DNA of 64,000 nucleotides from Halogeometricum rufum (GTDB lineage: Archaea > Halobacteriota > Halobacteria > Halobacteriales > Haloferacaceae), in the NCBI RefSeq assembly GCF_900112175.1, contig NZ_FOYT01000002.1, positions 806,001 to 870,000 of the forward strand. The letters run 5' to 3'. The notes below the pieces were generated by a model. The model was not told where the DNA came from. It saw only the letters and a program-made list of their open reading frames with translations, and searched no databases. Both the position numbers and the translations under genes were made by a program. How positions within the stretch are numbered: position 1 is the first letter of the stretch; every line of letters starts with the position of its first letter. Of this stretch, positions 13,422 to 18,013 are shown in pieces.

Positions 13422-15869
13422 ATGAGAAGACTGGACGTTCTTCCAGCGTTCTTTCGGCGGAGTTACTTCCGGAAGTACGTGTTGGTGCTCGCCGTCCTCG
13501 TCGCGTCGATGGTCGGCGTCGGCCTGTACACCCAACAGGTGGTCGGCGACGAACTGACGGGGGAGAAGCACGCCGAACTACAGACCATCGCGGAGCTAGA
13601 GGCCGCGAACCTCGACGAGTGGGTGGCCACGAACCGACAGCGGGCGCGGATGCTGTCGGAGCACCGCGGGTTGCAGGCCGACGACCCCGACAGCGTGGAC
13701 CGGACGCTCCTCCGCGAACACGGCCGGTTGCCGAACGACGTGTACGCGGTTCACTACGTCGACCTGGAGACGGGGGACATCGTCCGCAGCACGGCCGGTC
13801 AGATGGAGACCAAGTCGCTCGACGACGTGGACCTCAGCTGGCAGCGTGGCGAACTGGCGTTCACCCAGTCGACGGACGTGGCCGTGAGCGAGGTGTACCG
13901 AAACGGCGGACTGCAACTGGTCGCCTTCGCCAGCCCGATTCCGGGGACGGACCGCGCGGTGATGCTGGTCACCGACGCGACGCAGCACGCGAAGTCGTTC
14001 CGGCGACCGGTCGAGGGGTCGCACACGCAGGTCGTCCGCGAGGACGGCACCGTCCTGTTCGACCGCTACGGCAAGAACGTCCTGACGACGTACCGCGACG
14101 GCGACGCCGCGCCCGGACTGGACGCCGCGGCGGCGGCCGAGGGCGGCGGCGTCGTCGAACGCGCCGCGGACGCGAGCGTCGTCGCCTACGCGCCGGTCAC
14201 GGGCACCGACTGGGTCGTCCTCGTCCAGGCGCCGCGCGAGAACGTGTTCGCCCTCCTCACGGAGGTCCGAAACGACCTGTTCATCCTCATCGGGACGGCC
14301 GTCGCCGGGTTCGTCGTGATGGGACTGACGCTGGGCCGGAGTACGGTCGTCTCCCTGCGTCGCCTCCGCACGCGGGCGGAACGACTCGCCGACGGCGACA
14401 TGGATGTCGACCTCTCGTCGAGTCGGATAGACGAGTTCGGCGCGCTGTCGGACGCGTTCGCCGAGATGCGGGACGCGCTTCGAGAGCGCATCGAGCAGTC
14501 CGAGGCGACGGCCGCGTCTCTCGAACGCGCCGCCGACGACTACGGCGAGACGATGGACGAGGCCGCCGCGGGCGACCTGACGGTCCGGATGGACCCCGAC
14601 GCCGCGGGCGACGCCGAGTCGATGGCCGAAGTCGGCCGCCGCTTCAACCGCATGATGGACGAGTGGGAGGAGACGGTGGCCGAGGTGGGCGCGTTCGCCG
14701 ACCGGGCCGCCGCCGCGTCCGAACGGGTCGGCGCCGGCACCGACGAGGTGTCGGCCGCCAGCCAGCAGGTGAGTCGGTCGACGCAGGAGATAACGGCGGG
14801 CGTCGCGGACCAACTCGACACCCTGCAGGCGGTGTCCGACCAGACGGCCGACCTGTCGGCGACGGTCGAGGAGATAGCCGCGCAGGCGGACGAACTCGCG
14901 ACGCTGTCGAAGCAGGCGGCGACGCGCGGCGACGAGGGGCGCGAGGCGGCGACGGCGGTCGGTCGGGAGATGGACGAGATAGCGGACCAGGCCGAAGCGG
15001 TCACGGCGCGCGTGTCCCGACTGGACGAGGAGGTGGCCGACATCGCGTCGGTCGTCGACCTCATCGACGACATCGCCGAGCAGACGAACATCCTCGCGCT
15101 GAACGCCTCCATCGAGGCGTCGCGGGCGGGCGAGGCCGGCGAGGGGTTCGCCGTCGTCGCCGACGAGGTGAAGCAACTCGCCGAGGAGACGGCTGCGGCC
15201 ACCGACGACATCGCCGACTCCATCGCGTCGGTCCGCGAGGCGACGACCGAGGCGGTCGAGGAGATGGAGGAGATGCAGTCGTCCGTCGAGGACGGGTCCG
15301 AGACCATCGACGACGGCGTCGACGCCATCCGCGAGGCGGTGGACATCGTCGAGGAGGTGGACCACGGCGTCCACTCCATCGACGAGGCGACCGACTCGCA
15401 GGCCTCGGCGACGCAGGAGGCCGCAGACCGCGTGGACGAGGCGGCGAGCATCGCGGCGCAGACGCACGACGAGGCCGAACAGGTCGCCGCCGCGGCGCAG
15501 CAACAGACGGCCTCGCTCGAAACCGTCGCCGACGAGGTGGACGAGTTGGCCGACCAGACGGGGGACCTCGCCGCACGCGTCGAGACGTTCGACGTGAGGG
15601 AAGACGCGCGGACCCGCGGGGACGCCGACGAGACGCCGGTCGCGACCGGCGATGGGGCCGACCCGGTGGACGGCGAGGACGCGGAGAGCGGAGAGAGCGA
15701 CGAAAAGCCGGACGAGGAGGCCGACGACGGCGACGAGAGAGCGGACGCCGACCGGACCGACGGCGACGACGAGAGAACGGACGCCGACCGGACCGACGAC
15801 GGCGACGCGGACGGAGTGACGGCCGCCGCGACAGAGGCCGGGCGAGCGGACTCGGACCGGCACGAGTGA
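13422..15869 (+). CDS. Methyl-accepting chemotaxis transducer (dCache/HAMP/MCP)
   Basis: This 815-residue haloarchaeal transducer (Htr) should couple an external or membrane signal to CheA. It has TM1 at about 19-37, an extracellular Cache-like sensor at about 38-280, TM2 at about 284-306, HAMP at about 307-362 and a second HAMP-like segment at about 375-420. The cytoplasmic coiled coil carries the MCP tip ([20 protein letters not shown], about 549-568; then [15 protein letters not shown]). The C-terminal 95 residues are an acidic, low-complexity tail with a 12-residue repeat. No che genes are adjacent. The ligand is unknown. Confidence 0.93.
15732..15803 (+). repeat. 36-bp tandem repeat in the transducer tail
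   Basis: There are two adjacent near-identical 36-bp units, 15732-15767 and 15768-15803, coding for [12 protein letters not shown] and [12 protein letters not shown]. They sit in the acidic C-terminal tail downstream of the signalling domain and are likely to vary in copy number between strains. Confidence 0.85.
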
Positions 15870-16000: not shown

Positions 16001-16047
16001 TGGGAAAAGGTAGCGCCCGTTCGGGAACAGCCCGAACGGACGCTGCC
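16001..16047 (-). terminator. Hairpin plus T-run, likely end of the small RNA
   Basis: The 16-bp stem (one mismatch and one wobble pair; 16009-16025 with 16031-16047, loop 16026-16030) is followed on the minus strand by TTTT at 16008-16005 and then C-rich sequence. It could serve both as a structural element and as a 3' end signal. Confidence 0.45.
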
Positions 16048-16100
16048 GCCCTGAATTGGTCCCCGCTGACGCTTCGGCCCTCCAAAGCGAAGCGTCACAT
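16005..16100 (-). ncRNA. Candidate two-hairpin small RNA
   Basis: The 370-bp gap between the transducer and the next gene has no convincing ORF. On the minus strand it shows a complete small-transcript architecture: a TTTAAG box (16126-16121), then about 25 nt later a 10-bp perfect hairpin (arms 16097-16088 and 16076-16067, 11-nt loop containing GGAGGG). A linker follows, then a long second hairpin (arms 16047-16031 and 16025-16009, with a perfect 9-bp core CCGTTCGGG/CCCGAACGG), directly followed by four T. I do not recognise a known family. The strand call rests on the TATA-like box and the T run. Confidence 0.5.
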
Positions 16101-16120
16101 GTTCCGATGGCTGGCAGACA

Positions 16121-16126
16121 CTTAAA
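16121..16126 (-). promoter_or_regulatory. TATA-like box of the small RNA candidate
   Basis: Read on the minus strand this is TTTAAG within ACGTTTAAGTG, a good haloarchaeal TATA box. A start about 25 nt downstream (near 16100) would fall just before the first hairpin. Confidence 0.45.
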
Positions 16127-16240: not shown

Positions 16241-16741
16241 ATGAGCGACGTACCGGACCGGGCACGGCGTGCCTTCCGCGACCACGATTCCTTCGAGCAG
16301 GTGGACGAGACGACGTACGAGTGGACGGCGACGGCGTTCGACGGCCGCGTGACCGCCGGCGCGGACGGCGGCGAAATCGCGTTCGCGGTGACCGTCCGCG
16401 TCCCGATGCTGGACGCCGCCGTCGAGGACGACGTCGCCCCTGTCGTCGAGGACGGCTGGTACGAGACGTTCGAGTTGCGCGTCGAGGACGTCGGCGGGGT
16501 CACCAAGAAAGAGCACGACTTCGACGTGGACGTGTCCCGCGAGGGGTCGACGGCGGTGGTCAGCACGTCCTTCACCGACATCGACGAACGGCGCGGCGTC
16601 GCGGACGCCGGCGCGGTCATCGACTACGTCGAGGGGACGTACGTGCAGGGAATCATCCCCGGCTACGAGTACACGGAGCCGGTTTCGGGCCTCGTCCAGC
16701 GCGCGACGGACGCGGCCAACAGCGACGGCGCACCGCTCTGA
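16241..16741 (+). CDS. DUF5813-like haloarchaeal protein
   Basis: The 166-residue soluble acidic protein begins RARRAFRDHDSFEQ and contains the conserved DVGGVTKKEHDFDVDV and VEGTYVQGIIPGYEY segments seen in a widespread haloarchaeal family of unknown function. It has no signal peptide or membrane helix. It converges with the RAM-domain gene. Confidence 0.75.
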   Translation: MSDVPDRARRAFRDHDSFEQVDETTYEWTATAFDGRVTAGADGGEIAFAVTVRVPMLDAAVEDDVAPVVEDGWYETFELRVEDVGGVTKKEHDFDVDVSREGSTAVVSTSFTDIDERRGVADAGAVIDYVEGTYVQGIIPGYEYTEPVSGLVQRATDAANSDGAPL

Positions 16742-16777: not shown

Positions 16778-17017
16778 TCAGTCCATCGCGATGTACGTCT
16801 GCGTGTCCTCGATGCCGTCCATCTCGTGGATGGACGCCGCGATGTCCTTGACGTCGCCCGGACCGTCGACGTTCGCCTTGACGATGAAGTCCACGTCGCC
16901 GGCGACGATGCTGACGGTCTCGACGCCGGCGTCGAGGTCGAGCATCGACTGCTTCAGTCGGTCCACGTCGCCCGTCGACGCCTTCACCATCACGTAGGCG
17001 GTGACCATCTCAGGCAC
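16778..17017 (-). CDS. Stand-alone RAM (Lrp/AsnC ligand-binding) domain protein
   Basis: This 79-residue protein is one RAM domain without a DNA-binding part (MVTAYVMVKAS, then VSIVAGDVDFIVKANVD, ending QTYIAMD). Such proteins usually bind amino acids or other small ligands and form oligomeric rings. It overlaps the 3' end of the TrkA-like gene by 8 bases, so the two are co-translated. A second stand-alone RAM gene lies at 17780. Confidence 0.88.
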   Translation of the reverse strand: MPEMVTAYVMVKASTGDVDRLKQSMLDLDAGVETVSIVAGDVDFIVKANVDGPGDVKDIAASIHEMDGIEDTQTYIAMD

Positions 17018-17693
17018 CCCCCGCGGCGGTGGCGACGTCCTCGCCGACGACGAGTTGCCGCACCTCGTTGAGCACGTCGAAGTCCGCGAGGATGGCGAGT
17101 CTGTCGCCCGTCTCGAGGGAGTCGTCGCCCATCGGGATGCCCATCTTCTCGTCGGCCTTCCCGAACGCGAGGATGCGAGCGTGCGCCGGGAGCGCCACCT
17201 CCTCGATGGAGTAGCCGCGCATCGGCGACTCGTCGGAGACGGTCATGAGGACCACCTGGAGGTTCTGCGCGATGTCGGCGATGGCGCGAATCGACCCCCC
17301 GAGGAGGGCGTTCTTCGCGCCGATAGCGCCGAGGCGTTCGGGGTAGACAACCTCGTCCACCTCCTCGGCGTACTTCCGGTACACCTCCTCGCGGTAGTCC
17401 TCGTCCACGCGAAGCACCGTCCGCAGACCGTGATGCTTGGCGATGGAACAGGCGGCGAAGTTGACGTTCAGGTCGCTCGTGAGTGCGCCGAGGGCGTCCG
17501 CGTCCGCGACGCCCGCCCGGTCGAGGACCACCTCTCTGGAGCCGTCGCCTTCGACCACCTCGAACTCCGCCTCGCGGGCGCGTTCGATTCGGTCGGCGTC
17601 CACCTCGACGAGTGTCACCTCGTGCCCTTCCTCGCGGAGGACGCGGGCCGTTCTGAGTCCGACACGACCTGCACCAATGATAACGAACCGCAT
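17010..17693 (-). CDS. TrkA/KTN-type NAD-binding regulatory protein
   Basis: This 227-residue protein has an N-terminal Rossmann domain (VIIGAGRVGLRTARVLREEG at about 4-23, GDGSREVVLDRAGVADADA at about 49-67) and a C-terminal TrkA_C domain (about 140-215; MRGYSIEEVALPAHARI). It probably gates a potassium or other cation transporter in response to NAD(H) or nucleotides. No channel gene adjoins it. It overlaps the RAM-domain gene downstream. Confidence 0.88.
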   Translation of the reverse strand: MRFVIIGAGRVGLRTARVLREEGHEVTLVEVDADRIERAREAEFEVVEGDGSREVVLDRAGVADADALGALTSDLNVNFAACSIAKHHGLRTVLRVDEDYREEVYRKYAEEVDEVVYPERLGAIGAKNALLGGSIRAIADIAQNLQVVLMTVSDESPMRGYSIEEVALPAHARILAFGKADEKMGIPMGDDSLETGDRLAILADFDVLNEVRQLVVGEDVATAAGGA

Positions 17694-17779
17694 GGAGAAT
17701 ACCTACACCGCCTGAGATGAATAAGCTTCCCCCGACGGCCGGCGCAAACGCTATGTCGCGCGGCGTGCACCTGTGTAGC

Positions 17780-18013
17780 ATGGTCCACGCCTTCATCATG
17801 GTCAAGACCGGGGCCGGCGAATCAGAGCGGCTCCTCGCGCCGATTCGAGAACTGGAGACGGTGACGGAGGCGCACATCGTGGCGGGCGCGTACGACATCA
17901 TCGCCGAAGTCGACACCGACGAGGTGTACGAGGTGCTCCAGACGGCGTCGAGCAAGGTGCAGGGGTTGCAGGGCGTCACGGACACGAAGACGTACATCAC
18001 GATGGACGACTGA
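17780..18013 (+). CDS. Stand-alone RAM (Lrp/AsnC ligand-binding) domain protein
   Basis: The 77-residue RAM domain starts at MVHAFIMVKTG and ends KTYITMDD. It is a paralogue of the 16778-17017 product: same length, same HIVAGAYDIIAEVDTD core and the same terminal TKTYI motif. It is divergent from the TrkA-like gene. The upstream TGAATAAGC at 17714-17722 could be part of its promoter. The start at 17780 matches the paralogue better than earlier in-frame Mets. Confidence 0.85.
   Translation: MVHAFIMVKTGAGESERLLAPIRELETVTEAHIVAGAYDIIAEVDTDEVYEVLQTASSKVQGLQGVTDTKTYITMDD

Follow-up and report, generated by a model that had tools for sequence, protein, structure and literature searches.

The predicted sRNA gene and its surroundings

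The window (the whole stretch of 64,000 nt analysed here) contains a gap between the gene for an MCP-type transducer and a divergently oriented DUF5813 gene, and there is no recognised gene within this gap. The minus strand of the gap carries the features of a small RNA (sRNA) gene, which are listed here with the neighbouring genes.

15869: end of the MCP-type transducer gene, neighbour of the sRNA
16003 to 16098, minus strand: predicted sRNA gene with a transcript of about 95 nt, as judged from the TATA spacing, the conserved core and the terminator-like end
16003 to 16011, minus strand: U-rich tail ACCUUUUCC, predicted terminator
16012 to 16044, minus strand: stem 2, terminator-like 3' hairpin (arms 16044-16031 and 16025-16012, 14 bp with one G.U, loop of 5 nt)
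16046-16047 with 16009-16010, minus strand: GG/CC extension at the foot of stem 2, across one mismatch
16066-16045, minus strand: whole linker between the two stems
16057 to 16066, minus strand: single-stranded, G-rich linker GCGGGGACCA; every copy has its first 9 nt, GCGGGGACC
16067 to 16097, minus strand: 5' hairpin (stem 1 and loop), UGACGCUUCG-CUUUGGAGGGC-CGAAGCGUCA, near-invariant across the RNAs
16097-16088 and 16076-16067, minus strand: arms of stem 1, 10 bp, perfect
16087-16077, minus strand: loop of stem 1, CUUUGGAGGGC, which carries GGAGGG
16121 to 16126, minus strand: TATA box TTTAAG of the predicted sRNA promoter, centred 25.5 nt upstream of the putative start
16241 to 16741, plus strand: DUF5813 gene (PF19130, E=2.4e-57), the divergent neighbour that marks locus B

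The 5' end of the sRNA would lie at or near 16098, and the transcript would finish at the run of U's near 16005-16003. The full 96-nt sRNA (16098-16003, minus strand) is GTGACGCTTCGCTTTGGAGGGCCGAAGCGTCAGCGGGGACCAATTCAGGGCGGCAGCGTCCGTTCGGGCTGTTCCCGAACGGGCGCTACCTTTTCC, and 22 nt separate TTTAAG from its start. The sRNA includes the segment CGAAGCGTCAGCGGGGACC, and its 5' end would be expected at the (N)UGACG position.

A first-pass annotation of this DNA had reported tandem hairpins, a TTTAAG box, a GGAGGG loop and a T run in a gene-free gap, and all of these are present on the minus strand as it claimed, between the transducer end at 15869 and the DUF5813 start at 16241. The 16-bp second stem with one mismatch and one wobble that it described corresponds to the 14-bp stem 2 with its G.U together with the GG/CC pairs past the mismatch. 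The anatomy (TATA spacing, core and U-rich end) agrees with the strand and the length of about 95 nt proposed there, on the basis of the sequence and not of a transcript. The box and the loop were also said to exceed what chance would give. The feature is more than chance by the fold of the 96-nt sRNA, which has an energy of -49.3 kcal/mol compared with -36.7 +/- 3.2 kcal/mol for dinucleotide shuffles (z=-3.9, with 0 of 200 shuffles as stable), and conservation is decisive on this point.

The C-terminal tail of the neighbouring transducer (15640-15860) consists of near-repeats rich in Asp and Glu and is probably a low-complexity expansion.

Distribution of the sRNA

There is a second copy of the sRNA in the same genome, 700 kb from the window copy and 98% identical to it over 58 bp. 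Both copies have the same distance to the promoter box and have the core and the CCUUUUCC tail in common; their second hairpins are unrelated in sequence and pairing is retained in each. Two near-full copies are found in all five sampled genomes of the genus (5/5). At the level of the family, a homologue is present in 148 of 148 sampled genomes from 28 genera, and the named carriers include ten Haloferax species or strains. At the level of the order, homologues were found in 137 of 146 sampled genomes, covering 53 of 57 genera and 14 of 17 families. The order genomes that have no homologue are every sampled member of three families (f2, f9 and f11), and many of these genomes are small or incomplete. 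A covariance-model search of these nine genomes and of four from outside the order came back empty, and none of the 164 genomes sampled from the phylum outside the order has a homologue.

An exact match to the 29-base core pattern was absent from IMG/VR contigs and the core string was not found in searchable paper text. The first-pass annotation could not assign the RNA to a known family, in agreement with our search of Rfam 15, in which zero families reached the gathering threshold and the sub-threshold hits were at chance level, far under the cut-offs. Judged by sequence, this is a real and unusually conserved sRNA family that has no Rfam entry, and an earlier list of haloarchaeal sRNAs may already include it under a number.

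Conservation and covariation of the two stems

We compared 59 distinct sRNAs. In stem 1 (UGACGCUUCG/CGAAGCGUCA) eight of the ten pairs never vary and 99.5% of cells are paired; three RNAs depart at the first pair, and a G.U is the other exception. In this set the loop of stem 1 is only ever CUUUGGAGGGC, CUUGGAGGGC or UCUGGAGGGC and the linker AGCGGGGACC is identical in 59 of 59 RNAs. The segment 3' of the linker core is AAUUCAGGGCGGCA in most RNAs and is altered in genus g14 (L118, L133 and L095), where the sequence is changed after GGGGACC and forms the 5' arm of a different, equally paired terminator stem. This rewriting of the terminator trims the invariant core to the hairpin and GCGGGGACC. 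The invariance of stem 1 and the linker indicates that selection acts on their sequence and not on pairing alone.

Stem 2 shows compensatory changes, with both sides altered, in 14 of 14 modelled pairs, so that its sequence is fast-evolving and its pairing is conserved. There are 269 compensatory cells compared with 78.5 in shuffles (0 of 500 shuffles as high), the covariation score is 0.472 compared with 0.104, and over the whole structure 97.6% of cells are paired compared with 76.5%. The covariation signal collapses in slid controls, in which the partner is moved by 1-3 columns. The alignment used for these values was fitted to the model and is therefore biased towards the structure; the trend is the same in a nine-row alignment that predates any model, and every tail forms a hairpin when folded independently. 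Additionally, for 52 of the 59 RNAs the fold of the sense strand is better than that of the complement.

Conservation and covariation of the stems had been put forward in the first-pass annotation as a check on its proposal, and the outcome does not refute it. Both stems are kept across the order, stem 2 covarying strongly, and the positions of the TATA box and of the U-rich end, both of which it had pointed out, are the same in essentially all copies: as a sequence match, 80 aligned copies drawn from many families have, essentially without exception, TTTAA or TTTAT at a fixed upstream spacing, and CC and a U-run follow stem 2 in nearly all copies. A frozen stem 1 next to a freely covarying stem 2 indicates that the letters of the 5' hairpin are themselves recognised by a constant partner, which would be a protein or one conserved RNA.

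Two genomic loci

The sRNA is found at two loci, A and B. At locus A, which is found in most families, the sRNA lies upstream of a PadR-family gene (PF03551 match) on the same strand; the nearest solved relative of this PadR is hsRosR, which is about half identical to it over 83 residues. PadR is downstream on the same strand in 27 of 32 examined loci, at a distance of about 200-630 nt in 26 of them and 3.1 kb in one, and three of the five examined loci that have no PadR are B-type copies. DUF7117 is often located divergently at locus A and folD lies further upstream. There is a TATA-like element belonging to padR itself about 50 nt before its start.

In the promoter region of padR (L003, L097, L101 and others), about 50 nt upstream, we also observed a recurring element, for example GATATGTTTATT ... 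GACAATAA, in many families. From its sequence and position this element is possibly an autoregulatory operator for PadR.

At locus B, the locus of the window copy, the sRNA is flanked by the divergent DUF5813 gene and in many cases by a Trk gene, and this arrangement is kept in several Haloferacaceae genera. PadR is absent from locus B and the B copies are not directly followed by a gene in the same direction; they retain the invariant core and the promoter. Locus A is the ancestral copy and the window copy at B is a Haloferacaceae paralogue, or duplicate.

The region of the window from 16778 to 18013 encodes a TrkA_N/TrkA_C protein between two small stand-alone proteins resembling Lrp/AsnC ligand-binding domains, one of which was confirmed by Pfam. 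Other Haloferacaceae have part of this Trk cluster next to DUF5813 and the B copy.

In the nine order genomes that have no sRNA, the high-identity PadR is also missing and at most a paralogue of 45-55% is present, whereas six sRNA carriers that were tested have PadR at 79% or more. This joint absence fits a functional link between the sRNA and PadR and could equally be due to shared ancestry. In genomes G168 and G245 (loci L084 and L100) both the sRNA and the high-identity PadR are present and are no longer adjacent.

Alternative explanations

We consider it probable that the feature in the window is an independently transcribed, trans-acting sRNA of a haloarchaea-wide family; its transcription, exact ends, trans action and partner are what we infer from the observed conservation, structure, promoter position, two paralogues and lack of a conserved peptide. 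The association with padR raises the question of whether the structure is instead a cis-acting leader or attenuator, that is, a structured 5' UTR controlling read-through into padR at locus A, with the window copy a leftover. The position of PadR at the 27 loci and the absence of the high-identity PadR, along with the sRNA, from the same nine genomes would suit such a leader. However, the B copies keep the invariant core and promoter with neither PadR nor any co-directional gene downstream, padR has its own TATA-like element, the spacing between the two varies widely and PadR is unlinked in a few genomes. A padR leader is therefore unlikely, and a riboswitch in the PadR mRNA was rejected on the same evidence from the B loci and the padR element. 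Translation offers a different account, in which a leaderless microprotein (VTLRFGGPKRQRGPIQGG...) starts from the GTG at 16098. No stop interrupts this frame within the RNA, and most haloarchaeal mRNAs lack a leader (72% in H. volcanii, PMC4983044), but the copies begin variously with GTG, ATG, CTG, TTG or GCG and their loops have either 10 or 11 nt, a 1-nt difference that shifts the frame. There is thus no conserved ORF. Third positions are fixed as strongly as the others, and the nucleotide sequence of the aligned copies is fixed beyond any coding need. On these grounds a microprotein was ruled out and we regard it as very improbable.

The possibility that the conserved element acts as DNA has also to be weighed. 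The perfect palindrome TGACGCTTCG...CGAAGCGTCA could be the site of a transcription factor, and a DNA-binding site where transcription starts would likewise be compatible with an invariant palindromic stem; alternatively, two near-identical copies per genome could point to the right end, or the omegaRNA, of an IS200/IS605 element. An operator leaves unexplained why the linker is invariant and why stem 2 covaries. Against both an operator and a mobile element are the fixed synteny of the two loci in different genera and families, the covariation of stem 2 as RNA and the TATA box and U-tail that accompany the core. The same non-tnpB genes recur around both loci, and with this fixed synteny the IS200/IS605 element was rejected; we give operator DNA or an element end hardly any weight. 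A further reading concerns the same RNA and differs in what it does: it could be a ribosome- or protein-bound housekeeping RNA, the component of an RNP, and not a classical base-pairing regulator. Stem 1 arms and a linker frozen across families look more like an RNP or an rRNA-contacting RNA than a seed-based sRNA, and H. volcanii sRNA_61 is of the right size and has the right frame, a match of descriptions that makes its identity a lead (PMC12482152). Against this, complementarity to rRNA is not above that of shuffles, and the copies in one family are duplicated with different promoters, which suggests regulation. We regard the RNP reading as possible and somewhat doubtful. It is likewise a tentative suggestion that this is a near-universal haloarchaeal RNP-type RNA, its 5' half fixed like that of a housekeeping RNA, that is tied to the co-present and co-absent PadR. 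By inspection, the C (RUGAUGA), D (CUGA) and 3' ACA boxes of box C/D and H/ACA guide RNAs are absent from 16098-16003, and Rfam gave no guide match.

Comparison with known haloarchaeal sRNAs

A putative promoter position, no conserved coding frame and a covarying structure place the window sRNA among the stand-alone haloarchaeal intergenic sRNAs. One of these is sRNA132 (HVO_1405s) of H. volcanii, a phosphate-starvation sRNA that is intergenic and has basal promoter elements and two stems with a linker (PMC6560208). The window sRNA is alike in all of these structural features, but sRNA132 measures 138 nt, its 13-nt linker is rich in pyrimidines and it is found in Haloferax only, whereas the window sRNA has a purine-rich invariant linker and occurs almost throughout the haloarchaea. 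Identity with sRNA132 was rejected because the linker GCGGGGACC is not pyrimidine-rich and the window sRNA is not confined to Haloferax, occurring in 28 genera in the family and 53 of the 57 sampled in the order.

H225.2R (HVO_1727s2) of H. volcanii is a bioinformatic prediction of 96 nt that is present in 19 other haloarchaeal genomes, and its deletion mutant shows pleiotropic growth changes (PMC3956466). It is located at HVO_1725-1727 (orc5, an HTH gene and a TBP paralogue), a context not noted at either Haloferax copy of the window-type sRNA. These Haloferax copies, read from genomes other than H. volcanii DS2, sit at the PadR/FolD and DUF5813/Trk loci. Since its locus differs, H225.2R appears to be another gene and was rejected as a match.

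Another H. volcanii RNA, sRNA_61, is 111 nt long, ribosome-associated and among the most abundant sRNAs in the tables of the study that describes it; it has a 32-aa frame without a stop, and no protein was seen on a western blot (PMC12482152). The A copy of Haloferax (L072) likewise reads from its GTG through at least 32 codons without a stop. Compared by length, frame and abundance, sRNA_61 could be the window-type sRNA, which we treat as a lead only. The same applies to H3.2 and HVO_2908s, which are vesicle-enriched small RNAs common to Haloferax and Halobacterium (PMC10927574).

The window sRNA can also be set beside the sRNAs of bacteria. Bacterial-type sRNAs have a conserved 5' module and an intrinsic terminator made of a sequence-free hairpin and a U tail. 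The window sRNA resembles them in being modular, with a conserved recognition part and a terminator hairpin, but differs in that the 5' stem itself is frozen and not just a single-stranded seed.

Proposed function and significance

The first-pass annotation was correct in what it observed and largely right in reading it as a small RNA. For the trans-acting sRNA that we favour, TBP and TFB would bind the TATA box at 16121-16126 and RNA polymerase would start near 16098 on the minus strand. The 5' hairpin would present its loop, CUUUGGAGGGC, with the G-rich GCGGGGACC unpaired behind it, and these invariant elements, hairpin and linker, would together be the module recognised by one partner that stays constant, whether a protein or a single conserved RNA. 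Termination and stabilisation of the 3' end would fall to the 3' hairpin, for which folding may be the sole requirement, and to the U run.

It had been suggested that the GGAGGG of the loop might pair with an anti-SD or other C-rich target. The loop is invariant and a match of 5 nt (GGAGG/CCUCC) is there, but the complementarity of the loop and linker to 16S and 23S rRNA, taken from the operons of two relatives, is within the range of shuffles, and pairing with the anti-SD is unproven. Nor was a consistent site seen in the PadR mRNA. In the sRNA's own genome (G000, rated 99.8% complete), neither the Rfam SSU model nor a conserved 81-nt probe, which four relatives match perfectly, found 16S rRNA.

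Haloarchaeal sRNAs have been reported to be extremely poorly conserved, 22 of the 27 studied in H. volcanii being confined to the species (PMC3956466). Against this, a core of about 40 nt, hairpin plus linker, that is nearly fixed across 14 of the sampled families is surprising, both for its near-invariance and for its breadth, in an RNA that by kind is a haloarchaeal intergenic sRNA. The conserved core is accompanied by a duplicate in one family and by a recurring genetic link to PadR, and the covariance model of the sRNA is usable for annotation. Constraint this strong implies a shared and possibly central partner, and the short RNA, genetically tractable in Haloferax and Halobacterium, offers a means of finding an archaeal sRNA mechanism that would be clade-wide.
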